Source of the DNA: Halogeometricum rufum
Lineage (GTDB): Archaea > Halobacteriota > Halobacteria > Halobacteriales > Haloferacaceae
NCBI RefSeq assembly: GCF_900112175.1
Contig: NZ_FOYT01000005.1
Coordinates: 124,001 to 188,000 of the forward strand
Direction of reading: 5' to 3'
DNA: 64,000 nt
The position numbers were made by a program, and so were the translations under genes. How positions within the stretch are numbered: position 1 is the stretch's first letter; every line of letters begins with the position of its first letter. Below the pieces are notes generated by a model that made no database searches, was not told the DNA's origin, and was given only the letters and a program-made list of their open reading frames with translations. Shown piece by piece: positions 10,534 through 31,623 of the stretch.

Positions 10534-10626
10534 GGCGACATCGGGGACCGTAGCACGACTATTCATCAGTCTATACAGGTCTCGTATCAAAACAGTTTCG
10601 GGGAGAGATGTGTCACCGCGCCAACG

Positions 10627-12260: not shown

Positions 12261-12280
12261 CAGTCAATGCTCTCCTGCAG

Positions 12281-12291
12281 TGAGAAAAAGA
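12281..12291 (-). promoter_or_regulatory. TATA-like element for dacZ
   Basis: On the minus strand this reads GTCTTTTTCTC, centred about 26 bases before the dacZ ATG, which fits a leaderless transcript. Confidence 0.5.
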
Positions 12292-12463
12292 CTTGTGGGA
12301 CGTTCTCGGGGGTGATAACGGCTGACGCACGTCGGACAACTGTCGTCGCGTTCGAGCGGGACGGCGGCGAGAGCTGTCAGCGAAGGCGAACGTGCGGGTC
12401 TGCCACGTGTCGGGCGTCGAAGTTTCGGGCGGCGGGGTTCGAGCGACGGCGACGGCCAGAGGT

Positions 12464-12484
12464 GCGGGACCTGATTCGAACCGG
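12464..12484 (-). repeat. Partial duplicate of the tRNA-Leu 3' end (att-like)
   Basis: GCGGGACCTGATTCGAACCGG matches the tRNA-Leu 3' portion (12586-12606, T-arm plus acceptor) at 20 of 21 bases in the same orientation. It lies on the downstream side of the tRNA. Archaeal integrases recombine at tRNA 3' ends and leave such direct repeats, so this may be a scar of an excised or decayed element. No integrase gene is in the window. Confidence 0.6.
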
Positions 12485-12582
12485 AGCGAGAAATGCTCGC
12501 TCACTCCGTTCGCTGCGCGTTCCTTGCAGGGTTCGAATCCGCTCGTATCGATGGCTCTCCTCACTGACGTTCGGAGAAGCTA

Positions 12583-12667
12583 TGCGCGGGACCGGATTCG
12601 AACCGGCGGACTCCTACGAGACAGCGTCCTAAGCGCTGCGCCGTTGGCCAGGCTTGGCTACCCGCGC
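12583..12667 (-). tRNA. tRNA-Leu (anticodon UAG)
   Basis: The minus strand folds as a class II tRNA: acceptor GCGCGGG/CCCGCGC, anticodon stem CAGCG/CGCTG with loop CTTAGGA (anticodon TAG, reading CUA), a long variable arm, T-arm CCGGTTCGAATCCGG and discriminator A. The long variable arm fits leucine. CCA is not encoded. Confidence 0.95.
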
Positions 12668-12767
12668 GCACTACAGCGTATCAGGAATCGAGGTAAGAAA
12701 CTGTCGTTCGCGGCCGACAACGACCGAACTGAGCAAGCGTCAAGTGCGTCCGCGCGGTGCTTCAGGT

Positions 12768-13076
12768 ATGTATCGCGCCCGGGACAGAGTGGACAACGAG
12801 GAGTGGTTGACGCGCATCGAGGAGGGGGCCGACCGCCTCGAACTCGGGTCCGAAGCCCGGTCGTACGCCGGCGACATGTTCCTCTCGGAGGTGCCGGAGG
12901 AGGACCGGTCGAAGCGCGCCGTCGCGGCGGCAAGCCTCTACGCCGGCGCACTCATCGCGGGTGAGGAACGGTCGCAGTCGCGCGTCGCCGACGCCATGGA
13001 CGTGACGCGACTCAGCATCCAACAGCGCTGGAAGGAGATTCTCGAGACCAACGGGTTCCGGCCGCCGACCTGGTGA
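12768..13076 (+). CDS. Small TFB/TFIIB cyclin-like protein
   Basis: 102 residues. It resembles one cyclin repeat of transcription factor B: an Ala-rich helix (KRAVAAASLYAGALIAG) then an HTH-like end (SQSRVADAMDVTRLSIQQRWKEIL), similar to the C-terminal repeat of TFB, where RVADAxxVTxxSIxxRWKE contacts the BRE. There is no zinc ribbon and no second repeat, so it cannot act as a standard initiation factor. It could modulate promoter recognition or have lost DNA-binding function. The ATG at 12768 begins the conserved part (MYRARDRVDNEEWL). It is convergent with coaD, with only one base between the stops. Confidence 0.85.
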   Translation: MYRARDRVDNEEWLTRIEEGADRLELGSEARSYAGDMFLSEVPEEDRSKRAVAAASLYAGALIAGEERSQSRVADAMDVTRLSIQQRWKEILETNGFRPPTW

Positions 13077-13077
13077 G

Positions 13078-13584
13078 TCAGGCGTCGTCGGCGTCGGGAC
13101 GGGTCGCCTCGCGACCCTCGCGTTCGGGCGTGCGGTTGCCGTGGCGGTCTATCTCGCCGCGGACGATGCGCGTCGAAGAGATGCGCTGGCCGTCCTCGGC
13201 GGGGACGTGGTCGACGACTTCGATGTCCAACGGCGGCAGGTCGCGTTCCTCGCGTATCTCGTTGATGCGCGCGCCGCCGTCCTTCGTCTCCGGGGAGACG
13301 ATGAGCACGTCGAAGCCGGGTTCGGTGGCGATGCCGGTCGGTTCGGTCAGCGTCCGAATCTCGAACTCGCGGTCGTACTCCGCCGCGAACGGCTCCAGTT
13401 CCTCGACGAGGTCGCGCTTTCGCTCCTCGAACGGGCGGACGTACCGGTCGACGTGGCGGGTCCGCGGCGCGAGTTCGTCGCTCGTGAGACCGACGGTCAC
13501 GTCACCGAGTTCGAAGGCCCGCTCGAACAGCGCGAGGTGGCCGTCGTGGACCGGGTCGAAGGTCCCGCCCAGCGCGACGTTCAT
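13078..13584 (-). CDS. coaD: Phosphopantetheine adenylyltransferase
   Basis: 168 residues, archaeal type. It transfers AMP to 4'-phosphopantetheine to give dephospho-CoA in coenzyme A synthesis. The nucleotidyltransferase signature GGTFDPVHDGH starts at residue 6, and the second motif is GQRISSTRIVRGEI. The C-terminal tail is charged and probably disordered. A TATA box lies 27 bases before the start codon. It is downstream of the winged-helix regulator gene on the same strand with its own promoter. Confidence 0.95.
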   Translation of the reverse strand: MNVALGGTFDPVHDGHLALFERAFELGDVTVGLTSDELAPRTRHVDRYVRPFEERKRDLVEELEPFAAEYDREFEIRTLTEPTGIATEPGFDVLIVSPETKDGGARINEIREERDLPPLDIEVVDHVPAEDGQRISSTRIVRGEIDRHGNRTPEREGREATRPDADDA

Positions 13585-13607
13585 ATCCGGGCGTCGGCGG
13601 CTCGCAA

Positions 13608-13616
13608 CTTAAAAAG
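13608..13616 (-). promoter_or_regulatory. TATA box for coaD
   Basis: The minus strand reads CTTTTTAAG, centred about 27 bases before the coaD ATG, consistent with a leaderless transcript. Confidence 0.6.
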
Positions 13617-13657
13617 GTCGGCTTCGGGACCGCCCCGCGTCGGGGCGGACGTCCCCG

Positions 13658-14194
13658 TCACTCCTCCGGTTCGTCCCGGACGGTGATTCGGACCGGTTCC
13701 ACGTCGCCCGCCTCGTCGTCGCCGAGGAGTCGCCGGTCGAGGTTGAACACGGTGTTCAGTTGCGACTGGACCTGACCGACGGCGCTCCGGACGAGTTCGC
13801 TCGGCGCGATAGCCGTGTACTCGTAGGGGTTGTTGCCCGCGCCGGAGTTCTTCCGCTTGCGTCGGTCCACCATCTCCTCGTCGTGGAGTTCGGCGAGTGC
13901 CTCCCGGACGGTACTCGGGTAGAGGCCGGTGCCGTCGGCCACCTCGTCGCTGGTGGAGTGGGGGTTCTGTCGGAGGAAGACGAAGATGCGGGCGCGCGTC
14001 TCCGTGTCGAGCAGCCACGCCAACAGGTCCACGACGTTGTCGTCGAACTCCGAGACGGCGCGGTCGGCCTCCGCTTCGAGTCGGTCGCGCGTCGACGCGC
14101 CGTCCGCGTCGTCCGCGGGGTCCGCGGGGTCCGTCACCGGCGCGTCGGCGGACCCGCTCTCTCCGGGGTCGTCTGTGGGGTCGTCCGTAGACAT
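13658..14194 (-). CDS. Winged-helix transcriptional regulator
   Basis: 178 residues. An N-terminal acidic, Pro/Asp-rich region of about 45 residues precedes a helical segment (FDDNVVDLLAWLLDTETRA) and a winged helix (RIFVFLRQNPHSTSDEVADG through STVREALAELHDEEMVDRRK). A C-terminal region ends in a beta strand-like VEPVRITVRDEPEE. It resembles haloarchaeal ArsR/TrmB-like regulators. It lies 51 bases downstream of gshA on the same strand. A role in thiol or redox control would be inference from position only. ATG at 14194 was chosen over one 21 bases upstream. Confidence 0.85.
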   Translation of the reverse strand: MSTDDPTDDPGESGSADAPVTDPADPADDADGASTRDRLEAEADRAVSEFDDNVVDLLAWLLDTETRARIFVFLRQNPHSTSDEVADGTGLYPSTVREALAELHDEEMVDRRKRKNSGAGNNPYEYTAIAPSELVRSAVGQVQSQLNTVFNLDRRLLGDDEAGDVEPVRITVRDEPEE

Positions 14195-14245
14195 ATGTTC
14201 TATCACACAGGTCAAAACGGGACGGTGAAAAACCTTTCCGAACGC

Positions 14246-15322
14246 TCAGTCGAGGCAGAGCGCTTCGCAGAGGGCGTCGAGTCCCTCCTCCTCGTGAATC
14301 CGCCGCTGTCGCTCGGTGCCGCTCTCGGCGTCGAACAGGCTTCGGAGTCCGTCCACGCCGAGTCGGTCGCACTCGTCCGCGACGAACCGCTCGAGCGTGA
14401 CCGTCGATTCGCCGTCCGTGCCGACGAAACTCGCGTCGTGACCGTGCCGCGTGGCGCGCCACTTGTTCTCGTCGAGGAGTTCCCGGCGAATCTCCGTCCC
14501 CGTCTCGCCGTCCTCGTACCGGGCGGCCAAGTCGAGGACGAGTGCGTGGACGTACTCCACGAACGCCACCGTCACCGCGGGGTCGACCTGCGCGTCGGGC
14601 GTCCGGACCTCGACGGTGCCGTGGCCCGTGTGGGGGCGCACGTCGTACCAGAGTTCGCCGCGGTCCTCGATGGAGCCGTGTTCGACCATCCGACGCTCGA
14701 ACGTCCGGTACGCCTCGAAGTCCTCGAACCGAGAGGGCATGCCGGTGTTCGGCAGGTTCTCGAAAATCTTCGCGCGGGCCGAAGAGAGACCGGTGTCGAA
14801 GCCGTTCCAGAACGGCGAGTTCGCCGACAGCGCCAACAGCGGCGGGAGGTACCAGCGTATCTCGTTGGCTATCCACGTCGCCTTGTCCGGGTCGTCGACG
14901 CCGACGTGGACGTGCAACCCGGCCGTCGTGTTGCGGTGTTGCGGGTACTGGATGCGGTCGAGTTGCGACTTGTAGCGCGGCTTCGTGGCGTGGTCGAGTT
15001 CGCGCCACTTCGCGGCCGGGTGGAGGCCCGCGGCGGCGACGCGGTAGCCGTGGTCTGCCGCGTGGTCGACGAGTGCCTCGCGGACGGCCCGGACGAGTTC
15101 GTCCACGTCCGCGGGGTCGTCGATGAGCGGCGTCTGCGTCTCGACGGTGAACTTGAACAGTTCGTGGTCGATGCGGTCACCGAGAAGCCCCCCGGGCGGG
15201 TCGTCGTAGACGAGTTCGGAGATGCCCGAGGCCGGGTAGCCGTCGCTGTCCACGATGTAGAACTCCTCCTCGACGCCGAGGGTACCCATTCGGTCGAAGG
15301 CGTCGGCCGACCCTAGTTCCAT
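14246..15322 (-). CDS. gshA: Glutamate--cysteine ligase (haloarchaeal GshA, GCS2 type)
   Basis: 358 residues. It joins glutamate and cysteine with ATP to give gamma-glutamylcysteine, the main low-molecular-weight thiol of haloarchaea, which use it instead of glutathione. Signatures are [12 protein letters not shown] near the N-terminus, [28 protein letters not shown] (metal/ATP region), [17 protein letters not shown] and [14 protein letters not shown]. These match the glutamate-cysteine ligase type 2 (YbdK-like) fold. A TATA box 27 bases upstream indicates a leaderless start at 15322. The downstream winged-helix gene may share the transcript. Confidence 0.95.
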
Positions 15323-15345
15323 CGCAGGGTCGTTCGCGGCGGTCG

Positions 15346-15354
15346 ATTAAATAG
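15346..15354 (-). promoter_or_regulatory. TATA box for gshA
   Basis: The minus strand reads TATTTAATC, a near-consensus haloarchaeal TATA box about 27 bases before the gshA ATG. Confidence 0.7.
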
Positions 15355-15435
15355 GTCGTGGACCCCGGCGACCCGTGCAGCAACCGCGAAATCGGCGGAC
15401 AGAACGCCTGTCGCAGCGACTCTCCGATGCAGCGC

Positions 15436-16071
15436 TCACTTCGGACGGGCCACGACGCCGAGGTGGTCGTCGTGGAACCGGTCGAGTCGCGTCGTCTCCA
15501 GCACCTCGTACGAATCGCGCAACTCCGCGAGGACGTCCTCGAACACGTCGTCGGGGTCGGCGGTCACGTCTTCGCTCCGCGCCTTTACCACCGCGAGGAG
15601 GCGGCCGTCGTCTCGGAGGAACCGCCGGTTCCGATTGGCGACGGTCGCCTGTCCCCGCGTCGCCACGTCCTGCACGATGCAGTCGAGGTCCGCCTCGACG
15701 ACGTGCGCGTACGTCTCGGGCTTTCGCGCGTCCTTGAGGAGGGGAAACAGGTTCTCCCGGTCCTCGGCGACGCCGAGAAGGTCGCGGACCGGCCGCGCCG
15801 CGAACTCGACGGCGTACGTCGGCCCCGCGAAGTCGGCGACGTGCGAGACGGTCGTTCCCGACGCCGCACCGAGGTACAGCACCGTCTCCCCCCCGACGAG
15901 ACCGGTGTCCATCCCGTACTCGAACATCGCGCCGAGTTTCGACCGCCCGGCGTCCCACGCGCGCCATCCCTCGGCGTCCCGCGGTTCGCCGTACACCGTC
16001 TCGCCGCGCGTCGAGAGTCGCTCCCGACCGTCGAACGGCCGTCGCTCGACGCCGTCGGGCAGGTCGGTCAT
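15436..16071 (-). CDS. flpA: Fibrillarin-like rRNA/tRNA 2'-O-methyltransferase
   Basis: 211 residues. It is the catalytic subunit of the C/D-box sRNP that 2'-O-methylates rRNA and tRNA with S-adenosylmethionine. The N-terminal beta region (RRPFDGRERLSTRGETVYGE) is followed by the Rossmann domain with SAM-binding VLYLGAASGTTVSHVADF, VYAVEFAARPVRDL-like helix and DLDCIVQDVA. The frame is open upstream, but the ATG at 16071 overlaps the stop of nop5 by four bases (ATGA), the normal archaeal arrangement, which fixes the start. Confidence 0.95.
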   Translation of the reverse strand: MTDLPDGVERRPFDGRERLSTRGETVYGEPRDAEGWRAWDAGRSKLGAMFEYGMDTGLVGGETVLYLGAASGTTVSHVADFAGPTYAVEFAARPVRDLLGVAEDRENLFPLLKDARKPETYAHVVEADLDCIVQDVATRGQATVANRNRRFLRDDGRLLAVVKARSEDVTADPDDVFEDVLAELRDSYEVLETTRLDRFHDDHLGVVARPK

Positions 16072-16922
16072 TCGCCCACCTCCCGCGCTCGAATCGTCTC
16101 CATCCGCTCTCTGAGTTCCTCGTGAACCTCCGGCTTGTACTCCCCGGAGTAGTGGTCGATGCGGGCCGCGATGGCGAGTTTCCCCGCGAACGCGCGCGCC
16201 GCCGACCCGCGGTGGTCGGGGTGGGTGCCGCGGACGTAGTCGTGGACGTAGATGACGCCGTGTTTCGGCGACGACGCCCGACCCTCCAGATGCGCGAACA
16301 GGGCGTCCTCGGCTCCCAGCACCTGAACGGTGCCGGACGGCATCTTCGCCAACCGCTCCAACCCGCCCGCGAGGGCGACGAGGCGGGCCGCGAGGACCGG
16401 GCCGGCCATCTCCGCGAGATTCGGGGCCACGGCGGGCGCGCGCGCCTCGACGAACGCTCGCAGGTCGTCGCGTTCGTCCGCGAGGTCCGCGACGCGGCGG
16501 GCGTACGAGACGACGCGCTCCTCGACGGGCGTCTGCGGCTCTCTGTCCGCTACCTCGCGCGCGCCGTCGACGCCGACGCCCGCGTCGTCGTACAAAGTTC
16601 CGGCCCACTCGGCGAGGCGTTCGGCCAGTTCGTTCGCGGTGCGTTCGGCGTCGTCCATCGCGCGGACGGCGTGCACGAGTTGCCTGTCGTCGGCTCGTTC
16701 GCGTTCGCGGACCGCCTCGGTCGCGGCCCGGAGCGTCGCCTCGCGGAGGCGGTCGTAGTACGCCGCCTCGGAGTCCGCGTATCCCGATTCGACGGCGAGT
16801 GCGGGCCAGTCCCGCGGTTCCTCGCTCTCGCCGTCGGCGACGGCCGCGCTCGCGCCCTCGACGTCGTCCGGCTCGATTCCCTCGAACCAGCCCGTCCCTT
16901 CCGGGGCGGTTCCGTCGTTCAT
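16068..16922 (-). CDS. nop5: Nop5/Nop56-family C/D sRNP scaffold protein
   Basis: 284 residues. It bridges L7Ae, guide RNA and fibrillarin in the C/D-box methylation complex. Visible parts are an N-terminal region, a coiled-coil-like helical region (about 75-150, ERERADDRQLVHAVRAMDDA), and the Nop domain (ARAPAVAPNLAEMAGPVLAA, then RASSPKHGVIYVHDYVRGT, then RAFAGKLAIAARIDHYSG). It is shorter than many archaeal Nop5 proteins. ATG at 16922 was chosen over an upstream one because the conserved acidic N-terminus starts there. It is translationally coupled to flpA by a four-base overlap. Confidence 0.93.
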   Translation of the reverse strand: MNDGTAPEGTGWFEGIEPDDVEGASAAVADGESEEPRDWPALAVESGYADSEAAYYDRLREATLRAATEAVRERERADDRQLVHAVRAMDDAERTANELAERLAEWAGTLYDDAGVGVDGAREVADREPQTPVEERVVSYARRVADLADERDDLRAFVEARAPAVAPNLAEMAGPVLAARLVALAGGLERLAKMPSGTVQVLGAEDALFAHLEGRASSPKHGVIYVHDYVRGTHPDHRGSAARAFAGKLAIAARIDHYSGEYKPEVHEELRERMETIRAREVGE

Positions 16923-17134
16923 ACGTTCACGCTCGCCTTCGACCGGTATATCCGTCCCGGTACGGCGAGTCGAGGCCGTTCCGGTTACAGACGAACCCCT
17001 ATGGATGCAGATATGTGGCAGCGCTGAATACGAAGACTGCCGCACTAACGAGGCTCCGTTAAATTCTCGAGACCTACCTGTGGGATGTTGGGAAACTTTC
17101 TCGTCGTCTGCGGGGCGGCGACTGTGGGCGAGAG

Positions 17135-17791
17135 TCAGTGGACGAGTTCGGTGAACACACGTTCTTCGGCTTTCCGCAGGTGCTCACTGACCGTTCCGGG
17201 AGTAATCCCCACGACCTCACCGATGTCCTCAAGGGACGCTTGGCGAGGTTCACTGTAGTAGCCCAGATCGACCGCTGCCTCGAGCACTTCCTTCTGCCTA
17301 GCCGTAATCATTCTGTCGAACGATGAGTTATTCGCCTCGTAATCACCCATCTTGAGAATGTCGAACGTGAACTGTTCCATCTCGTCAACGTATTCGTACA
17401 GCTTGCTGAATGCTTCGTCAGTTCCCAAGTAGGTGATTTTAACTTGGTTATCGGAGGTAAATCGAATCGGTGTTTCAATTACCAGAAGCGATTTTCGTTG
17501 CAGTTCGAGCCCCCGGCGAACCTCTTCTGTCGGTTCAAACTGACTCACGGCCATCCAGCGGTCTTTTCCGGCGGTGAGATAACTGCTGACGTAAGAAGAG
17601 TCCTCCATAATTTGTTCGTACCGTTCCTTACTGCCGCTTGCCTCGGCAAATAGGAGTACAGTGTCGTCATCGAGCAGTTCGATATGATGAATGGCCCGCC
17701 GTTTGATCGACGGGGCGTCTGCCAGTGCCGTCCCGAGCGGATGGAACGCGCCCCGTCCACCCGGTTTGACTAACACAGTGAGATATCGCAT
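17135..17791 (-). CDS. Bat-type HTH transcriptional regulator (HTH_10)
   Basis: 218 residues. The C-terminal 55 residues are the bacterio-opsin-activator HTH (MITARQKEVLEAAVDLGYYS, then ASLEDIGEVVGITPGTVSEH, then LRKAEERVF). The N-terminal 150 residues form the mixed alpha/beta sensory region found in small Bat-like and DmsR-like regulators, with no PAS or GAF domain. It is divergent from the NuoCD-zinc-ribbon-methyltransferase unit across 114 bases, so it probably controls that unit. The ATG at 17791 has a TATA box 25-27 bases upstream; an earlier in-frame ATG-like start is less likely. Its DNA is clearly lower in GC than the backbone. Confidence 0.88.
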   Translation of the reverse strand: MRYLTVLVKPGGRGAFHPLGTALADAPSIKRRAIHHIELLDDDTVLLFAEASGSKERYEQIMEDSSYVSSYLTAGKDRWMAVSQFEPTEEVRRGLELQRKSLLVIETPIRFTSDNQVKITYLGTDEAFSKLYEYVDEMEQFTFDILKMGDYEANNSSFDRMITARQKEVLEAAVDLGYYSEPRQASLEDIGEVVGITPGTVSEHLRKAEERVFTELVH

Positions 17792-17810
17792 AGAAGTATC
17801 AAATGTGCGC

Positions 17811-17819
17811 AGAATTAAA
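17811..17819 (-). promoter_or_regulatory. TATA box for the Bat-type regulator
   Basis: The minus strand reads GTTTAATTC (revcomp of GAATTAAAC), about 25 bases before the regulator ATG. Confidence 0.55.
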
Positions 17820-17828
17820 CAACCAGGG

Positions 17829-17860
17829 CTCACCGCCATTTAAACTACACCACGGGTGAG
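17829..17860 (+). promoter_or_regulatory. Inverted repeat around a TATA box, likely operator for the nuoCD unit
   Basis: CTCACC (17829-17834) and GGTGAG (17855-17860) form an inverted repeat flanking CATTTAAAC, a good TATA box for the plus-strand nuoCD gene (start 17906). A regulator bound here would sit directly on the promoter. The divergent Bat-type protein is the obvious candidate, but this is inference. Confidence 0.45.
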
Positions 17861-17905
17861 GCAGTATGCCTACTGCACTACACCGAAAACTAGGGCCTGT
17901 GGACG

Positions 17906-19546
17906 ATGCAACGCCAACAACGCTCGACCACTGAGCAGTTCATAAACGAGGTGGTCTCAGCCCTCCCCGATAAGACCGTTCTCGGGCGTGATTCACACGA
18001 GAACGCCCCCGCACTCGTGATCCGTGCCGACCAGGTCCAGAAGGTTCTCTCGACACTTTACTCCGAGGTCGGACTCGATCACTGCTCGTGTGTGACTGCT
18101 CAGGAGTACGACGACCGCTTCGAGACGGTCTATCACCTCACCAGTTACGACGATCGGACGCGCGAGTTGTCCGTTGTCGTCCCGACGACGAAGGACGGCC
18201 CGGTCAGTGAGTCGGCTGCACCGGTTTACCGGACGGCCGAGTGGCACGAACGAGAATCCTACGACCTCGTAGGTATCGAGTACGAAGGTCATCCGGACCT
18301 CCGGCGCATCCTGCTCCCGGAGACGTGGCAAGGTCATCCGCTCCGCGAAGATTACGGTCGGAACCAGTCTCAGATCGTGGCGCTCCCCGCGCACGCCAAC
18401 CCTATCCAGAACGACAGTCGGCAGGGTGATACGATATTCCTCAATATCGGGCCTCACCATCCGTCGACCCACGGCGTGCTCCACTTAGAGGCAGTTCTCG
18501 ACGGCGAGCAGGTGGTGGACGTCGAGCCGGATATCGGCTATATCCATCGGTGCGAGGAACAGATGTGCCAGCAGGGGACGTACCGGCACCAGATTATGCC
18601 CTATCCCGACCGCTGGGATTGGGGCGGGGCGGGGCTGCTCAACGAGTGGGCCTACGCTCGCGTCGTCGAGGACCTGGCCGATATCGACGTTCCCGAGTAC
18701 GCTCAGGTCATCAGGACGATGAGCGCCGAACTGTCGCGCATCCTCTCGCACCTGTTAGCTACTGCCATGTACGCACTCGACGTGAGCGGTGAGTTCACCG
18801 CCACGTTCATGTACGGCTTCCGAGACCGGGACGCCGTTCAGAACCTCTTGGAGGACCTGACCGGCCAGCGCATGATGTTCAACTACTTCCGCGTCGGCGG
18901 TGTCGTCTGGGATGTCCCCGAGCCTCGAGAGGAGTTCTTCGAGGACGTGCGTGCTTTCACAAACAGCCTACCACAGAAGCTGGAAGAGTATCATAACCTG
19001 CTGACTAGCAACGAAGTCTTCCAAGTTCGTTGTGTGGATACTGGTGAGCTACCGCCACAGGTCGCCAAGCAGTACGGGGCCACCGGACCGGTCGCTCGCG
19101 GTTCCGGTATCGACTACGACCTCCGGCGGGATGACCCGTACGGATACTACGACCGCCTAGAGTGGGACGTCGTCACCGAGAACGGTTGCGACAACTTCGC
19201 CCGCGTGCTCGTCCGACTGCGGGAGATCGAGGAGTCAGCAGCGATCGTGGAGCAGTGCGTCGACCTCCTCGCGGATTGGCCAGAAGAAGAGCGAAGCGTC
19301 CAAGCTAACGTTCCCCGGACGTTGAAGCCGTCTGGGGAGTGTTACAGGGCCGTCGAAGGTGCCAAGGGCGAACTCGGGATTTACATCCGCGCCGACGGCA
19401 CCGATACGCCCGCTCGGTTCAAAATTCGCGGACCATCCTTCTCGAACCTGTCGGTACTACCAGCGATGGCAGAGGGAGAGTACGTTCCCGATCTCGTCGC
19501 GACTCTCGGAAGTCTCGATACCATCATCGGGGAGGTCGACCGATGA
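17906..19546 (+). CDS. nuoCD: NADH dehydrogenase-like complex I subunit NuoCD (stand-alone copy)
   Basis: 546 residues, a NuoC-NuoD fusion as usual in haloarchaea. The 30-kDa part (about 30-160) ends with ERESYDLVGIEYEGHPDLRR and GHPLREDY. The 49-kDa part starts TIFLNIGPHHPSTHGVLHLE and continues with GYIHRCEEQMCQQGTYRHQ, MPYPDRWDWGGAG and YGATGPVARGSGIDYDLRRD. The 49-kDa subunit forms the quinone pocket. The His of HPSTHG is kept; the usual DRxDY tyrosine is DRWDW here, which may be normal for haloarchaea. No other complex-I gene is nearby, so it is probably a second copy. It overlaps the next gene by ATGA. Confidence 0.92.
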   Translation: MQRQQRSTTEQFINEVVSALPDKTVLGRDSHENAPALVIRADQVQKVLSTLYSEVGLDHCSCVTAQEYDDRFETVYHLTSYDDRTRELSVVVPTTKDGPVSESAAPVYRTAEWHERESYDLVGIEYEGHPDLRRILLPETWQGHPLREDYGRNQSQIVALPAHANPIQNDSRQGDTIFLNIGPHHPSTHGVLHLEAVLDGEQVVDVEPDIGYIHRCEEQMCQQGTYRHQIMPYPDRWDWGGAGLLNEWAYARVVEDLADIDVPEYAQVIRTMSAELSRILSHLLATAMYALDVSGEFTATFMYGFRDRDAVQNLLEDLTGQRMMFNYFRVGGVVWDVPEPREEFFEDVRAFTNSLPQKLEEYHNLLTSNEVFQVRCVDTGELPPQVAKQYGATGPVARGSGIDYDLRRDDPYGYYDRLEWDVVTENGCDNFARVLVRLREIEESAAIVEQCVDLLADWPEEERSVQANVPRTLKPSGECYRAVEGAKGELGIYIRADGTDTPARFKIRGPSFSNLSVLPAMAEGEYVPDLVATLGSLDTIIGEVDR

Positions 19547-19851
19547 CGACGACCGCTTCACGGCGATGGGTGACCGACACCGGCCAGCAGGTAACCTGCA
19601 TCGCCTGTGGCGAGACGCTCGACCGAGAGGACGCCCGCGAGTACGACAAACACGGCGACCGCTGGAACCGCGAGGGAAAGAATTTCGAGTACCTCTGTAA
19701 GCCCTGCGACCGTGAGTACTGCCGCCAGAACCGCGACGGACTCGAAGAGACGCTCATAGCAGCCGACGCCGGCAAAACCGACCGCAAGACGTTCCTCAGA
19801 CGGTTCTGCGAGCTGACGACCGACAACAACGACGACAATGACCTCCAGTGA
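19543..19851 (+). CDS. Small zinc-ribbon protein (DUF7562-like)
   Basis: 102 residues. Two cysteine pairs, CIACG and CKPCDREYC, can hold one zinc in a ribbon, linked by REYDKHGDRWNREGKNFEYL. The rest is charged helix. I recall a haloarchaeal family of this form (DUF7562), without known function. The ATG overlaps the nuoCD stop (ATGA) and the 3' end overlaps the methyltransferase start by 14 bases, so the three genes are one translationally coupled operon. A role in assembling or tethering the NuoCD partner is inference. Confidence 0.88.
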   Translation: MTTTASRRWVTDTGQQVTCIACGETLDREDAREYDKHGDRWNREGKNFEYLCKPCDREYCRQNRDGLEETLIAADAGKTDRKTFLRRFCELTTDNNDDNDLQ

Positions 19852-20539
19852 GAAATCGAAGCAGACGAAGGGTCCCCACAATCGAATCGAGTCCGACGCG
19901 GCGTCGACTCACTCGATGTCGGTCTCGGACATCAAAGACGCGTATGCGGAGTACGCTGATTCGATGCATCGGCTCGAATGGCTCGACCGTGTTGTTATCG
20001 GTCGCTATCGTCAGGCCCGATTCGGAGATGTCGAGGGGAGAGTGCTCGACGTCGCCTGTGGCACTGGAACGAACTTCCGATACCTCCCCAACACGGTTGA
20101 CCTCGTCGGTATCGACGTTAGTCCAGAGATGCTGGCGAACGCCGAGGAACAACTCACCGAGTTAGAGATCGACGGCGATCTCCGGGAGATGGACGCACAG
20201 GAACTCGAATTCGCCGACGACAGTTTCGACGCGGTGATTTCCGCGCTGTCGACTTGTACGTTCCCCGACCCAATTGCTGCACTGCGCGAGATGGACCGCG
20301 TCTGCAAGCCTGAGGGAACGATTCGCCTCGTCGAACACGGACGTAGCGACGTCGGTCCAATCGCAAAGTATCAGAAATGGCGTGCCGACGCTCACTACGC
20401 GAGGAACGGCTGTCGCTGGACGCAAGAGCCGCGCGAAGTCGTCTCCGAGGCGGGCCTCGAGGTGCGGGAGACCAGCACTGGGCTCTTCGGCACGATCAGT
20501 ACCTTCGAGATACTTCCGAACCAGAGTGAAGAACGATAA
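19838..20539 (+). CDS. Class I SAM-dependent methyltransferase (UbiE-like)
   Basis: 233 residues. The SAM-binding motif is VLDVACGTGTNFRYL (69-83), followed by LVGIDVSPEML, DGDLREMDAQELEFADDSFD and the post-motif LREMDRVCKPEGTIRLVEHG. This order is that of UbiE/COQ5 and small-molecule methyltransferases. The partner NuoCD suggests a quinone or a quinone-like substrate, but this is inference. It is the last gene of the operon. A 766-base gap follows. Confidence 0.9.
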   Translation: MTSSEKSKQTKGPHNRIESDAASTHSMSVSDIKDAYAEYADSMHRLEWLDRVVIGRYRQARFGDVEGRVLDVACGTGTNFRYLPNTVDLVGIDVSPEMLANAEEQLTELEIDGDLREMDAQELEFADDSFDAVISALSTCTFPDPIAALREMDRVCKPEGTIRLVEHGRSDVGPIAKYQKWRADAHYARNGCRWTQEPREVVSEAGLEVRETSTGLFGTISTFEILPNQSEER

Positions 20540-21305
20540 TCGAACTGTCTTCCGGAGCGCTGGAGTGGCTCGCCGTCGGTTGCCCCCTGGCGATTGCAGG
20601 AGCAGTAATCAGGCTCCGCAGGTGGACGGTTCGCGGGTTGGACGAGACAGCACCTGTTCGATATTGATTCGCAACCCGGGCTTGAAGTCGGGACCTGGCG
20701 TGAACTGCCTGCGAGTAGCGCAGACTGGAGTTCTCGTGCCGGGGATAGTGGCGGATTTCGAGACCCTGCACGGTCGTTCACGCGGTGATTTCACTTGTTA
20801 CTGCCTCTCACCGGAATATATCCGAACGAACAGTACCAGAAGTTTACTCACTGTATCTCGAAGAGGGAACGTGTTTTATTTCACTGCGGTTTTTACCGTC
20901 AGAATGATCTGACTCACGGATGTAGCGATGCGCGGGTACTGAAGAACCCCAGTTACGTGAGTGCTGGATTGCTCACTGAGTTATCCCTGCTCGCTTCGGT
21001 AGCTACGAGTTGCGGGCGAAAATCGTAGTGAGACAGTAGGCTGATAACCGACTCCGAGTTACGAACTCCCATTTTACGTTGGATGATAGAACTTGAGTAT
21101 GCTGACGCGGTCAACTTCAGAGCACTCAGCTCAAAATAAACTCTTCGAGGCCACTGCCCGAGGTTGAACAGTCGGGTGGTAGCGAACGCACAGCAGTCAG
21201 ACCCGAGGCTGCTTTGAGTACCGGAACCGCCCGGCTGTTCCAGTTTCATATATCGTATCGCTCACACGACGAACGATTTACAGGGAGCGAGACAGAGGTA
21301 GGAAC
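20540..21305. other. Long non-coding gap in the accessory island
   Basis: No convincing gene in either strand; all open frames are short and lack family-like sequence. AT-rich patches occur near 20815-20900 and 21100-21140. A TATA element for the PAS-Bat gene lies at its right end. The stretch 20930-21060 gives a short open frame on both strands and could be a remnant of a mobile element, but I see no inverted terminal repeats. Confidence 0.6.
21277..21285 (+). promoter_or_regulatory. TATA box for the PAS/GAF Bat regulator
   Basis: GATTTACAG is centred about 25-27 bases before the ATG at 21306, as expected for a leaderless gene. Confidence 0.55.
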
Positions 21306-24300
21306 ATGTTTCCTGTCGGGTCTCACTCGCTGCAGGGGGCGGTAGTGGGGACGGAAACGCTCGTCGAGACCCTCGAAGGTCGGGAGAAGGAACGAGGTCT
21401 GTCACTCCACGTCGTCGATCCCGAAGTGGTGGAAGCGGGAGCACCGAGCGACGGAACGGCCGATTGCTTAGTGGTCGAAACGTCGGAATCGGACGATGAG
21501 AGCGAGACCGTCGTCGAGCGTTGGCAGGACGGGTGGCCGAACGTCCCTGTCGTGTTACTCGTCGCAGGCTGGGCTGACGAGCGAGTCGCAGACGCGGTCT
21601 CTGCGGGAGCGGCCGACGTTCTTCCGCGTAGACTCGTCGATACCGACCCCGACGTGGTCGTAGAGAGGATCGTCGAGGTCGTCGAACGGGAACACGCCCT
21701 GACGAGCTTTCGGGAGTTGTACGACGAGGGTTCGGAAGCCACGACGGTTCACGACGCGGAGACGGGCCACATGGTCCACGCCAATCGAACGTTCTGTGAA
21801 CTACTCGGGTACGACCGCGAGACGATTCGGACGATGCGGTTCGGGGAACTCATCGCTCACGTGCCGGGATACGACCACGAGCGTGCGATGGACGTCTTCT
21901 CCAGCGTCGCCGAGCGGGACGAGTCGCTGGAGATCCAGTGGCCACTCAAGACCGCCGACGGGGAGGTACGGTGGTCCGATGCACGGCTGTCGTCGGTTCG
22001 CGTCGGCAACCGGGAGGTCGTCCTCTCGACGTCGGTGGATATCACCGAGCGTCGCCGTCACGAACACCGATACGAGCAGGTGTTCGACAACGTCAACGAC
22101 GTCATCTCTATTCACGACCCGTGGGCCGAAGAGATGCTCGACGTCAACGAGACGATGAGCGAGTTGACCGGCTACGGCCACGAGACGCTCCTCGAGATGG
22201 ACGTTGGCGGGGTCAGCGACACCGACCTCGGGTTCAGCGAGGGCCGCGCGTACGAGATGCAGCAACGCGTCGCCGCCAGCGGCGAGTCAGAGACCGTCGA
22301 GTGGATGATAGAGACGGCGTCGGGGGACCGCCGACTGCTGGAGACGAACCTCGCGCCGGCCACCATCGACGGGGAAGATCGGGTGCTCGCGCTCTCGCGA
22401 GACGTGACCGAGCGACGAGAGTACGAACGCCGCCTCGAACGGGAACGGGACCGGCGATCGGTCCTGTTCCAGAACAACCCCGACCCGGTCATCAGAGTCC
22501 GATTCGAGGGCGGTGAGCCGATCATACGTGAGGTGAATCCGGCATTCGAGGAGGTGTTCGGCTTTCCTTCGGCCGACGTCGTCGGTACGAGCGTCGTCGA
22601 TGCGGTCGTTCCAGCCGACGAACGTGAGCAACACGAACGGCTCCGAGAGAAGGTCGTCCGTGGCGAACCGGTCGAGCGCGAAGCGCGGCGATTGACTGCC
22701 GACGGCGTCAGGAACTTCCAGTTCAAGGTTATCCACTTTGGGTCGAGCTCGGAGGACGACTCGGCGACCGACGCGTACGTGTGGTACACCGACGTTACGG
22801 ACCGGAAGCGGCGAGAAAAAACGGTCCGCCGCCTCCACGAGTCGACGGACGAAGTCCAAAACGCCGAGACGAGACAGGAGGTCTGCGAAGCGGTCGTCGA
22901 CGCCGCCGAAAACGTGCTGGGGCTCGCGAATCCGGCGTGCTGGGTCGAAGGAAAGAGCGAGGAGTCGCTGACATCGGTCGCCGGGTACGGAGACCAATGG
23001 GGCGGTGCCTCGTCCGACAACAACGCGAGCACGTTCGAACCGGGAGACGAGGGTTACGTGGCATACACGGAGAACGAGCCCCGGGTCGTCGACACGGCCG
23101 ACTGGGACGAAGGCGACCAGTCGAAGGCTGCGATCCTCCTCCCACTGGGCGACCACGGACTGTTCGGCGCGGCCGAACCGGGCGGTGGGGAGTTCGAGGC
23201 AGTCACTCGCACCGCCGCTCGCATCCTGGCCCGCCACGCGACGACCGCACTCGAGAGGGTCGAACGCGGCCGCGAACTCCGGGAGAGCGACCGGCGCTTC
23301 CGACTCATCGCCGACCGAATCGACGAGGTCATCTTCCTCTCGGAACCGGATTTCTCGGAGCTCTTCTACGTGAACGACGCCTACGAGACACTCTGGGGAG
23401 AGTCCGTCGAGAAGCTGTACGACGACCCACGAGGATTCATCGACAGCATCGACCCGCGGGACCGCGAGTCGTTCGAGGCCGACTTCGAGGAGATGGTCGC
23501 CGACATCGAACGCGGCGACGCCGACGAGAGCTACGTCTTCGAGTACCGAATTCGTCCCGACGGCGGGGACGTCCGGTGGGTCCGGGCCACCGGCTACCCC
23601 GTCGAACTGGAAGACGGAGACGACACGAGGTTCGTCGGTATCGTCGAAGACGTCACCGACCGGCGTGAACTCGAACGGACGTACCGAGGGGTGTTCGAGA
23701 ACGTCTCGGACGGACTCGTCATCCACGAGCCCGAATCGGGCCGGATAGTCGACGTGAACGAGCGATTCTGTCGGATGAACGGCTACGAGCGGGACGAACT
23801 TGTGGGCGAGACGATAGACGTCGTCACTGCCTCCGATCACGAGTACGAGCGTGCCGAGGCTCTTATCGAAGAGGCACGCGAGCAGGGCTCACAGCTGTTC
23901 GAGTGGCGAAACCGACGAAAGAACGGTGAGACGTACCCCGTCGAGGTTCACCTGAGCGTCGTCGACATCAGAGGGAACGAACGCGTGTTGGGGAGCGTCA
24001 GGGACGTGACCGAGCGAAAGCGTCGCGAGCGTGAGTACGAGCAGATATTCAACGGCGTTCAAGACGCCATCACCGTGTTCGACCCGTCGACTGGGGAGAT
24101 AGTCGAAGTCAACGATACCTATCGCGAGATGCTGGGATACGACGACCTCGGGACGATACGAGAGCTGGGAATCAGCGGTCTCAGCGTCAGCGACGAAGGG
24201 TACACCGAGGAACGGGGAACGAAACTCATCAGAGAGGTGGCTGAGACCGGCGAACCCCGGACCGTCGAGTGGCGGGGTGAACGAAAAGACGGCGAGTTGC

Positions 24301-26876
24301 TGTGGCTGGAGGCGAAGTTAGCGCCCGTCGAGATCGGTGGAGAGAGGCGGGTCGTCTCCATGCAACGGAACGTCACGGAACGAAAGCGTCGCGAACACGA
24401 GTACGAACAGATATTCGACGGCGTCCACGACGCCATCACGGTCCACGACTCGGACACGGCGGAGCTAGTCGACGTCAACGAGACGTTCTGCGACCTGCTC
24501 GGTTACGAGCGCGCGGAGATACTCGAGATGGGGGTCGACGGCTACACCCCCGAACAAGAGGGTTACTCCCTGGAATCCGGCCGGGAGTTCATCCACGAGG
24601 TCGTCGAGACGGGCGACCCGAAGCAGATCACGTGGCCGGTCGAGACGCGCGACGGGGAGCTACGCTGGCTGGATATCGAGGGGACGACGGTCGAGATCGG
24701 CGGGCGAGTCCGCTACGTGTCGATCGGACGCGACGTCACCGAACGTCGGCGCACCGAACGCAAACTCAGCGCGATCCTCGACCGGATCGACGAGGCGATA
24801 TTTCTCACCCGGGTCGAAGAGATCACGGCGGCCTCACAGTCACCGGACTACGTCAGTTCCGGCTACGAGTCGATCTGGGGACAATCCCTCGAACAGATCA
24901 GAGACTCCAACGAGGACGGGTTCTTCGGGACGTTACATCCCGACGACGAGGAGGAGTATCGGTCGACCGTCGAAGCGATCGTCGCCGACGTCGACGCCGA
25001 CGCCGCAGACGACCGATACTCGCAGGAGTACCGCATCGAGCGCACGGACGGAACGATCCGATGGGTGCAGTCCGACTACTATCCGACCGAGTGGGGCGCG
25101 GGCGAGACTCGAATCGTAATCGTCAGTCGGGATGTGACGGCTCGAAAAGCCCGCGAGCGACGTATCGCCTCGTTCGACGACGCGACCGACGACCTCGCGA
25201 GGGCCGACTCGCCCGAAGAAGCCGCGCGTCAGGCCGTCGAAGCGGCGACCGACCTGCTCGAACTCCCTGCAGTCGGGGTTTTGCTGTACGATGACGACGA
25301 CGGCGTCCTCCGCCCCGAGGTACTCTCGGGGCAGTTCCCCGAGGCGGTCGCGACCGACAGCGTCGGTCCGAGTGACGGGGCGTTGTGGGAGGTGTTCGCC
25401 ACCGGAACGATCGTCGCCTCGGACGGCGGAACCAGTCGCTCCGGCTTCGTCGGCGCGACTGACGCCAGACCAGACACGCTGTCGGACCTCGAAGCGTGGC
25501 GTGCGATGGCCCTCGGTAACCATGGCGTCCTTCTCGTCGGCGCTCCCGAGCAGTCGCTCGACTCGGACACGATACAGGCCGCTCACGTCCTCGCGGCGAC
25601 GCTCGAAGCCGCTTTCAGCCACCTTCAGAGCAGAGAGCGACTCGCCGCACAGGAAGAACGCCTCCGGACACAGACCGAACGCGCGGACCGACTGGACCGG
25701 ATCGCACACCTCGCCCAACAGGTGGAAGCCGCCATCACAGACGCCTCCGCCCCTGCGGAGGTCGAACAGGAGATCTGTGATCGCCTCGCCGGTTCCGGCC
25801 CGTACGACCTCGCCTGGACGGGCGGCATCGACGTCGGCACGGATCGACTCGCTGCACGAACCGTCGTCGGGGCGACTGACCAGTACGTCGACGAGATGGC
25901 CCTGACCACGACCGACAGCACCGCCGACCCGCATCCGACCGTCACGACGTGGCGAACCGACGAGGTCTGCGTGGCGGATTCGATCGTCGACGACGGTCCG
26001 ACGGGAGACTGGCGACGGATCGTCCTCAGCGAAGGGTATCAATCGCTGTGCGCGGTTCCGTTGACGTACGACGGTATCACGCACGGTGTGTTGACTATCG
26101 GGAGGGATACGCCGAACGCGTTCGACGAACGGGAGCGAGCGATGCTGTCGCAACTCGGAACCTCGATCGGATACGCTCTCGCGGCCATCGAGCGGAGGCG
26201 GGCGCTGGAATCCGACGAGTCGGTCGAACTGGAGTTCCGCGGGTCGAACGTGGCCCTCCCGTTCGCTCGCGCCGCCGCCGCCGCCGACTGTCGGGTCACG
26301 CTCGTACGGACGGTCGCGCGGCAGGACGGACCGACCAGCGTCTACGTCCGCTTCGAGGGCGATCTCCCCGACAACACTGCACGAGTGGCGGACCGGACGT
26401 TTTCGGGAGACGTCAGCGTCGTGAGCGAGGCGTCGTCGAAGACCGTGTTCGAGGTCAGAGCCGACGAGTGGTTCGGGTCGCCGCTAGCCGAGTACGGCGG
26501 GGTGATTCGCGATGCCTCGGCCGACGCCGACGAAACGACTCTCACCGTCGAGGTTCCCGGGGAGGCGGACGTGCGGTCGTTCGTCGGCCGACTGCAGGAG
26601 ATGGCACCGTCGCTCGAACTCGTCGCCAGGCGGCAACACCGACGGCGTGACCGAACGCCGGCGGAACTCTCCGACCGCGTCAGAGCGGAACTCACCGACA
26701 GGCAGTTCGAGGTCGTACAGACGGCCCTGTCGGCGGGCTACTTCGAGTGGCCCCGAGAGAACGACGGTGGCGAGGTGGCCGACCGACTCGGCATCACCCA
26801 GCCGACGTTGAACAAACACCTCCGACTCGCCGAGAAGAAGACGTTCGGTCTCCTGTTCGACACCGAGTCGGTATGA
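21306..26876 (+). CDS. Giant PAS/GAF Bat-type transcription factor
   Basis: 1856 residues. Rough domain order: receiver-like N-terminus (1-130), PAS1-PAS3 (135-508), GAF1 (510-655), PAS4-PAS8 (657-1275), GAF2 (1277-1455), GAF3 (1457-1625), Bat-associated domain (1630-1795) and the C-terminal bacterio-opsin-activator HTH (RQFEVVQTALSAGYFEWPRE, then VADRLGITQPTLNKHLRLAE). PAS units end in the usual DVTERKRRE-type linkers. No histidine kinase or ATPase domain is present, so the signal should go straight to DNA. PAS5-PAS7 are closely alike and look like internal duplications. It is convergent with the FAD enzyme gene. The target is unknown. Confidence 0.93.
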   Translation: MFPVGSHSLQGAVVGTETLVETLEGREKERGLSLHVVDPEVVEAGAPSDGTADCLVVETSESDDESETVVERWQDGWPNVPVVLLVAGWADERVADAVSAGAADVLPRRLVDTDPDVVVERIVEVVEREHALTSFRELYDEGSEATTVHDAETGHMVHANRTFCELLGYDRETIRTMRFGELIAHVPGYDHERAMDVFSSVAERDESLEIQWPLKTADGEVRWSDARLSSVRVGNREVVLSTSVDITERRRHEHRYEQVFDNVNDVISIHDPWAEEMLDVNETMSELTGYGHETLLEMDVGGVSDTDLGFSEGRAYEMQQRVAASGESETVEWMIETASGDRRLLETNLAPATIDGEDRVLALSRDVTERREYERRLERERDRRSVLFQNNPDPVIRVRFEGGEPIIREVNPAFEEVFGFPSADVVGTSVVDAVVPADEREQHERLREKVVRGEPVEREARRLTADGVRNFQFKVIHFGSSSEDDSATDAYVWYTDVTDRKRREKTVRRLHESTDEVQNAETRQEVCEAVVDAAENVLGLANPACWVEGKSEESLTSVAGYGDQWGGASSDNNASTFEPGDEGYVAYTENEPRVVDTADWDEGDQSKAAILLPLGDHGLFGAAEPGGGEFEAVTRTAARILARHATTALERVERGRELRESDRRFRLIADRIDEVIFLSEPDFSELFYVNDAYETLWGESVEKLYDDPRGFIDSIDPRDRESFEADFEEMVADIERGDADESYVFEYRIRPDGGDVRWVRATGYPVELEDGDDTRFVGIVEDVTDRRELERTYRGVFENVSDGLVIHEPESGRIVDVNERFCRMNGYERDELVGETIDVVTASDHEYERAEALIEEAREQGSQLFEWRNRRKNGETYPVEVHLSVVDIRGNERVLGSVRDVTERKRREREYEQIFNGVQDAITVFDPSTGEIVEVNDTYREMLGYDDLGTIRELGISGLSVSDEGYTEERGTKLIREVAETGEPRTVEWRGERKDGELLWLEAKLAPVEIGGERRVVSMQRNVTERKRREHEYEQIFDGVHDAITVHDSDTAELVDVNETFCDLLGYERAEILEMGVDGYTPEQEGYSLESGREFIHEVVETGDPKQITWPVETRDGELRWLDIEGTTVEIGGRVRYVSIGRDVTERRRTERKLSAILDRIDEAIFLTRVEEITAASQSPDYVSSGYESIWGQSLEQIRDSNEDGFFGTLHPDDEEEYRSTVEAIVADVDADAADDRYSQEYRIERTDGTIRWVQSDYYPTEWGAGETRIVIVSRDVTARKARERRIASFDDATDDLARADSPEEAARQAVEAATDLLELPAVGVLLYDDDDGVLRPEVLSGQFPEAVATDSVGPSDGALWEVFATGTIVASDGGTSRSGFVGATDARPDTLSDLEAWRAMALGNHGVLLVGAPEQSLDSDTIQAAHVLAATLEAAFSHLQSRERLAAQEERLRTQTERADRLDRIAHLAQQVEAAITDASAPAEVEQEICDRLAGSGPYDLAWTGGIDVGTDRLAARTVVGATDQYVDEMALTTTDSTADPHPTVTTWRTDEVCVADSIVDDGPTGDWRRIVLSEGYQSLCAVPLTYDGITHGVLTIGRDTPNAFDERERAMLSQLGTSIGYALAAIERRRALESDESVELEFRGSNVALPFARAAAAADCRVTLVRTVARQDGPTSVYVRFEGDLPDNTARVADRTFSGDVSVVSEASSKTVFEVRADEWFGSPLAEYGGVIRDASADADETTLTVEVPGEADVRSFVGRLQEMAPSLELVARRQHRRRDRTPAELSDRVRAELTDRQFEVVQTALSAGYFEWPRENDGGEVADRLGITQPTLNKHLRLAEKKTFGLLFDTESV

Positions 26877-26895
26877 GTCGTTCCCGTCGGCCCTG

Positions 26896-28143: not shown

Positions 28144-28518
28144 CGGACCGACGGACGGTCCCGAGCGCTCCGACTCGGTGGCCTCGTTCGGAGGTCTCCG
28201 GCTGGATTGGCTTCCTTTCGAGTGTGAAAGCTTCGTTCTCCGCGGTTCGTCCGGGTGACAGGACGGCGATAAACGACGGTTCGGACGTCCCCGGTCGCCT
28301 CTCCGCGGCTGACACTCGTCTCTCATCCGTACCTCAGACTGTAACCCACTCGTACGTAACGAACCTCTCCGTGTTTCAGAGTCTGCAACAGTTCGGCGTC
28401 CCAGCGACCGTGAGAACTGGTGACAGAGTAATATAGCTAGCCACCAGCCCGAACCGGAGGAAACGTTCGTTGACACCAGTTTTGGGGCCGTGGAACGAGA
28501 ACGACTGTCCGATACGAA
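28144..28518. other. Intergenic region between divergent FAD enzyme and winged-helix genes
   Basis: Apart from possible 5' extension of the FAD gene, I see no gene. A TATA-like AGTAATATAG at about 28428-28437 faces the plus-strand regulator gene, giving a leader of roughly 55-60 bases. Confidence 0.5.
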
Positions 28519-28917: not shown

Positions 28918-29052
28918 CGTTCTCTCTCCCGAGAGCGACGACTCTCACGTCGAGATACCGTGGTCTCCGCCGTCAGTCTCGAGAATGCAGTCGTAGCGTG
29001 TCTCCTCGATGCCGTCTGGTGTCCGACGATACGGACGACACAATAGTACTAG

Positions 29053-29070
29053 CCCCCCGAATTCGGGGGG
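29053..29070. promoter_or_regulatory. 18-bp perfect palindrome upstream of regulator copy 2
   Basis: CCCCCCGAATTCGGGGGG is a perfect 18-base palindrome 69 bases before the GTG of the next regulator gene. It could be an operator for a dimeric winged-helix protein or, read as RNA, a GC-rich hairpin ending the previous transcript. It is not followed by a T-run, which argues against a simple terminator. Confidence 0.55.
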
Positions 29071-31574: not shown

Positions 31575-31623
31575 GTGGCCGAACGCGGACGGTTGGTCGC
31601 GGTCCGGCGGAGCGCGGCCCGGC

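Follow-up and report, generated by a model that had tools for sequence, protein, structure and literature searches.

A 64,000-nucleotide window of the Halogeometricum rufum genome (RefSeq assembly GCF_900112175.1, contig NZ_FOYT01000005.1, positions 124,001 to 188,000) carries, outside the nuo operon, a gene for NuoCD, the complex I protein that fuses the 30-kDa and 49-kDa domains. The encoded protein has tryptophan at the position of the tyrosine held to bind the quinone head group, and it belongs to a clade of haloarchaeal NuoCD proteins (Trp-type, as distinct from Tyr-type) that has a remodelled quinone site, is tied to a regulator outside the nuo operon and is able to provide the sole NuoCD found beside nuo genes. 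We consider it probable, on sequence evidence, that Trp-type NuoCD is an isoform of the quinone-site subunit of complex I that is regulated and can be exchanged for the Tyr-type. An earlier, sequence-only reading of the window had proposed that this copy either replaces the standard NuoCD under some condition or forms a separate quinone-linked unit with a neighbouring methyltransferase. The first of these proposals gained support in our analysis and the second did not. Not noticed in that reading were the exchange of Tyr for Trp, the larger clade and the additional genes that accompany NuoCD in relatives.

A tryptophan at the quinone site

The NuoCD gene (17906..19546, + strand) encodes both domains that mark a complex I NuoCD, the 30-kDa (PF00329, E 3.7e-37) and the 49-kDa domain (PF00346, E 1.1e-80). 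Residue 239 of the protein, specified by a TGG codon at 18620..18622 (+ strand), aligns with the tyrosine of E. coli NuoCD and is taken to correspond to bovine Tyr108, Thermus Tyr87 and Yarrowia Tyr144. This tyrosine of the 49-kDa subunit is described as binding the quinone head group as well as quinone-site inhibitors (PMC9503403, PMC8119997). Tryptophan occupies position 239 in all 25 aligned rows of the subtype to which the window copy belongs (window-type) and in 26 of the 27 other copies located outside the nuo operon, and tyrosine is present in 27 of 29 nuo-operon copies; lacking the tyrosine, the window protein was classed as a variant and not as a standard NuoCD. The sequence-only reading had suggested that a tree might separate such copies from complex I NuoCD, and the window copy does fall in a haloarchaeal Trp clade apart from the Tyr-type NuoCD of nuo operons. 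Specifically, 61 of 62 Trp rows cluster together, with an SH-aLRT support of 99, in a 93-row tree that was built by a quick method with a very distant outgroup (locus L118) and whose root and deep order are unsure. The trees omit L114 and L117 (short or split), L119, L120 and L121 (pieces) and L009 (internal deletion), and three duplicate rows were also dropped from the 93-row tree.

The Trp clade differs from Tyr-type proteins at further positions. Isoleucine replaces leucine at position 213, tyrosine replaces phenylalanine at 289 and methionine (isoleucine in two rows) replaces leucine at 541, and most members also have glycine for serine at 509 and serine for cysteine at 511 (L102, L103, L111 and L128 keep Ser509 and Cys511). 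Position 288 is threonine in all 27 Tyr-type nuo-operon copies; it is methionine in 23 and threonine in two of the 25 window-type rows, alanine (17/26) or threonine (9/26) in other Trp copies, and alanine in all six Trp copies inside nuo operons. The codons of Met288 and Tyr289 lie at 18767..18772 (+ strand). Met288 is matched to bovine Thr156 by its spacing to Asp160 (residue table of PMC9503403), an assignment that, like that of position 215 to bovine Arg85, was made by spacing or motif with no structure behind it. The quinone-site residues His189 and Asp292 are present in all 25 window-type rows and are invariant in all groups compared. The paired change from Tyr239/Phe289 to Trp239/Tyr289 may have shifted the hydroxyl to Tyr289, three residues before Asp292.

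Among 253 alignment columns that are invariant in the 27 Tyr-type nuo-operon copies, 241 are retained as the consensus of the 25 window-type rows, the NuoC domain keeping 42 of its 43 and NuoD 190 of its 201. The 12 lost columns are moderately clustered near His189, Trp239 and Asp292, with five located within 7 residues (P 0.005), four within 5 residues (P 0.013) and five within 10 residues (P 0.019), in a test that was chosen post hoc, after inspection of the data. Ratios of nonsynonymous to synonymous substitution rates (dN/dS) in close pairs are 0.066-0.175 for window-type (n=7), 0.087-0.128 for other Trp-type (n=5) and 0.084-0.112 for Tyr-type nuo-operon proteins (n=4). In E. coli, the NuoC domain is described as governing assembly (PMC7050243); a docking surface that appears to be kept, combined with an altered pocket, would be expected of an exchangeable subunit.

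The possibility that the window protein is a disguised [NiFe]-hydrogenase was rejected, as it has no Ni cysteines and contains DRWDWGG and GSLDTIIGEVDR where locus L118 (G269:C20:307500-317500) has RICGIC and DPCISC. The latter locus encodes a group-4-like [NiFe]-hydrogenase large subunit, and its contig also bears a NuoB-like gene (36-41%) and a window-type cassette.

NuoCD copies inside and outside nuo operons

The H. rufum genome has three NuoCD genes, i.e. a nuo-operon copy (C1:1339708), a second, outside copy (C1:729392) and that of the window, the last two being 75% identical to each other. The window copy is thus an extra copy, as the sequence-only reading had supposed. A single NuoB was found in this genome, and the same holds for 30 of the 31 genomes searched; the exception (G269) has a 36% relative beside a [NiFe]-hydrogenase-like subunit. 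No match to NuoB, NuoH or NuoI occurs in the stretch around the window NuoCD or in 25 further window-type loci, which places these copies outside the nuo operon. NuoCD is present in all 391 Halobacteria genomes. The window subtype is represented in 24 of them, H. rufum included, by proteins of 81-100% identity (E 0), and beyond these NuoCD identity falls to 76% or less. When only the exact motifs were counted, irrespective of where the copies lie, YPDRWDW was found in 175 and YPDRWDY in 382 of the 391 genomes; group g29 has YPDRWDW in all of its 24 genomes. Eight of the nine genomes that lack YPDRWDY hold YPDRWDW; the ninth, G345, is a 450-contig assembly in which the NuoCD match, a fragment at a contig edge, does not cover the site.

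In four genomes (G124, G174, G168 and G365, with completeness of 97, 97, 99 and 91%, respectively) no NuoCD other than the Trp-type was found, and its gene is located between nuoB and nuoH. In G168 and G365 the genes nuoB-CD-H-I-J-K-L-M-N follow one another in order, and in G124 and G174 nuoB-CD(Trp)-H-I lie together (L137, L138, L165, L166), in a cluster that could represent either a split operon or a loss of pump subunits. Both types occur in a single operon in G086 and G058, which reads nuoB-NuoCD(Trp)-nuoH-nuoI-NuoCD(Tyr)-nuoJ-K-L-M (L139 8279-13429 and L140 8471-13647), the Tyr-type copy having the sequence DRWDYTAN. Ahead of the second NuoCD lies a duplicated 25-residue piece of nuoI, which would fit an insertion of the Tyr gene at that point. 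The nuo-operon copy of G108 (L141 5952-7616) groups with Tyr-type relatives yet has Trp239 (DRWDWGGGG), and this chimaera retains Thr288 and Phe289. The nuo-operon and orphan copies of G108 are identical in DNA from about -60 to +74 around the site, and ten consecutive informative sites of the nuo copy, from +1 to +59, are orphan-like, with nuo-like flanks at -78 and +88. This conversion-like tract shows the pattern expected from gene conversion. More runs of orphan-like sites are seen nearer the 3' end of L141.

Anaerobic life was considered as a simple correlate of having only Trp-type NuoCD and was rejected, as heme-copper oxidase genes score above cut-off in all 12 genomes tested, the four Trp-only genomes included. 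Other unusual copies were also seen. Extra Tyr-type NuoCD genes are plasmid-borne in Haladaptatus caseinilyticus (L148 5986-8084), where NuoI follows and the end of NuoB was recognized upstream by eye, and in Halomicrococcus gelatinilyticus (L149 5291-7647), where the order is NuoB-NuoCD. At L117 (G332:C1:2968400-2978100) a Trp-type NuoCD appears as two separate matches, with an HTH_10 gene upstream, and is possibly decaying. Another Trp-type NuoCD, on a plasmid contig of Halobellus limi (L112, G333:C3:170000-179700), is accompanied by a DUF7562 relative (60%), by its own divergent HTH_10 gene and, about 4 kb away, by a second HTH gene much like that of the window.

Regulator, promoter and cassette

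The gene that faces the NuoCD operon (17135..17839, - strand) encodes a Bat-type HTH_10 regulator with an HVO_0513 N-terminal domain (PF24278, E 7.9e-31; PF04967, E 3.2e-17). Its HTH_10 domain scores 62.5 bits against a Pfam cut-off of 23.1, and the protein has, besides these two domains, one sub-cut-off sigma70_r4 match and no PAS or GAF domain as in Bat. The divergent arrangement described by the sequence-only reading was reproduced, including its 114-base gap, which follows if the regulator starts at Met17 (17791), perhaps the true start instead of 17839. A divergent HTH_10 gene, with divergence measured from the 3' end of the regulator, accompanies 25 of 26 window-type copies, 32 of 34 hand-chosen other copies outside the nuo operon (the exceptions are L130 and L120, the latter with no upstream sequence) and none of 34 nuo-operon copies. 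Earlier rules had given 24/34, then 25/34 together with 20/26 for the window type, because extended open reading frames or profile ends overlapped the NuoCD start. When the 34 other copies are restricted to Trp-type genes with upstream sequence, i.e. without L098 (Tyr-type, with an HTH_10 gene) and L120, 31 of 32 face a divergent HTH_10 gene, L130 being the exception. No HTH_10 profile match was found anywhere in the 34 nuo-operon loci, each of which includes at least 2.9 kb of upstream sequence.

The NuoCD operon is preceded by a TATA-like box (TTTAAACT; 17839..17846, + strand), recognized by its sequence and by comparison with the upstream regions of relatives, of which 18 of 26 window-type members have a TATA-like match at -66 to -68. 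An inverted repeat of CTCACC (17829-17834) and GGTGAG (17855-17860) had been reported to frame this box. The repeat is present, with conservation limited to its right arm, and it was rejected as the operator; at a distance of 15-30 bases the left arm occurs, among 26 upstream regions, only in the window, L070 (CTCAC..GTGAG) and L011 (TCACC..GGTGA). The sequence TGAGGCA is found 49-50 bases before the NuoCD ATG in all 26 window-type upstream regions, as part of a conserved operator-like element, GAGGCAG-N2-TGCCTAC (GAGGCAGTATGCCTAC, 17858..17873, + strand), that lies just 3' of the TATA-like box and whose exact sequence occurs once in the genome. Its palindrome, AGGCA-N3-TGCCT, is exact in 12 and has at most one mismatch in 24 of the 26 upstream regions. 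In a scan of 31 other promoters GGCAGAA was detected in 15 (control 0.009) and TGAGGCAG in seven (control 0.002), and the element is therefore far from general outside the window subtype. By the usual archaeal spacing the element would lie at about the predicted transcription start, a placement that would suit a repressor. Haloarchaeal Bat-type regulators are described as acting in low oxygen and in dimethyl sulfoxide (DMSO) and nitrate respiration (PMC11218638). Like the window regulator, Bat, NarO and DmsR are HTH_10 proteins encoded beside the gene set that they presumably control, and NarO and DmsR are likewise without PAS and GAF domains (PMC11218638). Unlike these three, the window regulator has the HVO_0513 N-terminal domain, its target would be a complex I subunit, and its conserved element is located 3' of the TATA-like box.

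Downstream of NuoCD lie genes for a DUF7562 zinc-ribbon protein with a CxxC..CxxC pattern (19543..19851, + strand; PF24443, E 6.2e-39) and a class I S-adenosylmethionine (SAM) methyltransferase (Methyltransf_11; 19838..20539, + strand; PF08241, E 5e-24), and our coordinates agree with the overlaps of 4 and 14 bases reported earlier. They are followed by the remnant of a gene for a DUF3784-like small membrane protein (20536..20658, + strand; tblastn E 6.5e-11, 43/106 residues), a gene that in relatives is located after the methyltransferase. The order of regulator, NuoCD, zinc ribbon and methyltransferase recurs in other genomes, as the sequence-only reading would have it. Across 24 window-type loci an HTH gene is present in all (divergent in 23; the exception is L063) and DUF7562 in 20 at a coverage of at least 0.6 (21 with any match). 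The methyltransferase lies within 5.5 kb in 13 loci and downstream on the same strand in 12, that of L064 being a distant relative located elsewhere. Within the same distance, an epoxide-hydrolase-like alpha/beta hydrolase occurs in 19 loci, a DUF3784-like protein in nine and a TRZ/ATZ-type amidohydrolase in nine; of all these genes the window retains just those for the HTH protein, NuoCD, DUF7562 and the methyltransferase. From these counts the core of the cassette consists of the regulator, NuoCD and usually DUF7562, and the methyltransferase is optional; we regard it, as well as the two hydrolases of relatives, as accessory. The cassette with an intact NuoCD is also present on a contig of Halorubrum sp. 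CBA1125. Six named haloarchaeal plasmids carry NuoCD genes that are 82-86% identical and annotated only as NADH-quinone oxidoreductase subunit C or D; on one of them, Natrinema pellirubrum pNATPE02, the full cassette is annotated.

Cysteines 19, 22, 52 and 55 of DUF7562 are invariant in 21 aligned rows and are broken in L014 and L061, which lie outside that alignment. The predicted structure of this protein is poor (pLDDT 63.2, pTM 0.49), and no solved structure gives it a match better than E 0.77. DUF7562 probably assists in regulation or assembly. A precedent for a co-regulator is Brz, a small zinc-finger protein described as required for bop transcription (PMC2253796); both are small zinc proteins encoded beside a gene that a Bat-type regulator controls or, for DUF7562, would control. 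Unlike Brz, DUF7562 lies downstream in the operon. A phage-defence system was considered for the cassette and rejected, the methyltransferase giving one weak match to a PADLOC model.

The cassette adjoins the nop5 and fibrillarin genes on a contig of 252,866 bases. The lower GC content noted earlier was borne out, with values of 0.53-0.61 per 1-kb segment over 17000-20999 as compared to 0.64-0.72 on the left (10000-16999) and 0.60-0.68 on the right (from 21000). When positions 10000-34000 were compared with two congeners, similarity broke off at 16,985 (G358) or 16,817 (G158) and picked up again at 31,650 or 31,971, respectively; since the break occurs in both, the cassette is part of a variable island within an otherwise conserved region. 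This island (16985-31650) comprises about 14.7 kb without similarity at that place in the two congeners and is flanked by nop5 and by a conserved block. It also holds, directly after the cassette, a gene (21306-26876) for an 1856-residue protein with several PAS domains as well as GAF, BAT and HTH_10 domains. No Rfam match was found at 16800-21500.

Proposed isoform exchange and its alternatives

In the proposed mechanism, Trp-type NuoCD would be made when the HTH_10 regulator permits, presumably through its action on the conserved element next to the TATA box, and would then pair with the single NuoB and the other nuo products, replacing Tyr-type NuoCD. Trp-type protein would thereby enter complex I in its own genome and exchange with the Tyr-type. 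The resulting pocket would contain tryptophan for the head-group tyrosine, methionine or alanine for Thr156 in most members and tyrosine for the neighbouring phenylalanine, changes predicted to alter quinone affinity, protonation or inhibitor binding and the reaction with menaquinone. The latter is described as the haloarchaeal quinone, and haloarchaeal Nuo as being without NuoEFG (PMC8305020). Replacement of the standard NuoCD is well supported by the clade that supplies the only NuoCD found in four genomes, by the occurrence of both types in one nuo operon in two genomes and by the HTH_10 gene at nearly all outside copies.

Several observations weigh against isoform exchange. In a Yarrowia study (Tocilescu 2010), exchange of the tyrosine reportedly led to very low activity with decylubiquinone, and Trp-type complex I might be poorly active. 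The Tyr-His-Asp triad is called strictly conserved in reviews (PMC9503403, PMC8119997). The window-type subclade itself is found inside a nuo operon at none of 26 loci, the nuo-operon inference coming from sister lineages. Within about 18 kb downstream of nuoI, the region searched in G124 and G174, nuoJ-N were not found, so that two of the four Trp-only genomes are without a demonstrated complete nuo operon; G365, with its 91% completeness and 150 contigs, could have a missed NuoCD copy. On a Halorientalis pallida contig the cassette NuoCD is internally deleted, and on a Halorubrum persicum contig NuoCD is absent and the other cassette genes remain. Finally, the 34 other outside copies are not a random sample.

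The best rival is a target bypass, in which an inhibitor-insensitive spare NuoCD would be induced when a natural quinone-site inhibitor blocks the Tyr-type protein, with the hydrolases and methyltransferase degrading or modifying the compound. It takes this place because the tyrosine is an inhibitor contact, described for the head groups of piericidin, aureothin, pyridaben, rotenone and acetogenin (PMC8119997, PMC9503403), and because the full cassette includes hydrolases, i.e. the epoxide-hydrolase-like and TRZ/ATZ-type genes of relatives. The patchy distribution of the cassette (24 of 391 genomes) and its presence on the six plasmids also fit. However, the Trp motif is common without the cassette, as the 175 genomes and all of g29 illustrate, no inhibitor is known here, and the four genomes in which Trp-type is the only NuoCD found fit a general isoform better; we therefore regard the bypass as unlikely. 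The absence of a NuoB gene of its own and the loss of the catalytic tyrosine would agree with an outside NuoCD that has left complex I and acts alone, e.g. as a regulator or decoy of quinone-site assembly, but the protein keeps complex-I-invariant residues in both domains, and members of the same clade serve nuo operons as the sole NuoCD found, with all genes from nuoB to nuoN in place in G168 and G365; we consider a solitary role quite improbable.

The separate quinone-linked unit, in which the methyltransferase would modify a quinone or NuoCD, or act analogously to the dimethylation of Arg85 in the bovine 49-kDa subunit, seems to us highly improbable. The overlapping genes of the window are in its favour, and bovine Arg85 is described as lying near cluster N2 (PMC3750175), the motif-matched arginine being kept in 24 of 25 window-type rows. 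Nevertheless, NuoB is single in nearly all genomes searched, half of the 24 cassettes have no methyltransferase downstream, and among the other copies a relative with more than 38% identity occurs at the L117 locus only. Moreover, the Methyltransf_11 protein reaches none of the cut-offs of the 25 NCBIfam families listed; with MenG_MenH_UbiE it scores 65.4 bits where 158.35 are required.

Returning to isoform exchange, we tentatively raise the wider possibility that haloarchaea have two complex I enzymes at their disposal, mutually exchangeable and distinguished by the catalytic quinone site, with a Bat-type switch between them and some lineages wholly Trp. If this is true, Trp-type complex I would function in the absence of the tyrosine that is credited with ligating the head group and donating protons. 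How this tyrosine contributes to quinone binding, protonation and coupling is a central open question in the study of complex I, and a natural Trp variant under purifying selection, the sole copy found in some genomes, offers an evolved system in which the need for it could be examined. The findings also suggest that archaea regulate complex I by swapping its catalytic subunit, and they offer a candidate function for the regulator-NuoCD pair. Among the best-ranked open-licence PMC literature we found no report of a Trp-type or duplicated haloarchaeal NuoCD, which is not proof of absence.

The closest known relative of the window protein is the complex I NuoCD/49-kDa subunit (NDUFS2, Nqo4) of the haloarchaeal Nuo type, with which it shares both domains, the quinone-site His and Asp and most invariant residues, and sister genes of the window copy lie in nuo operons. 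It differs from the standard NuoCD in its tryptophan for tyrosine, in the mostly methionine or alanine residue at the Thr156 position and in its location outside the nuo operon with an HTH_10 regulator of its own. Isoform switching is known in respiratory complexes, e.g. yeast COX5a/5b and the NdhD/NdhF variants of cyanobacterial NDH-1. As in those systems, an alternative subunit of one complex is placed under separate control; unlike COX5a/5b or NdhD/NdhF, the subunit that would be exchanged here bears the quinone site, so that the exchange would alter a catalytic residue.

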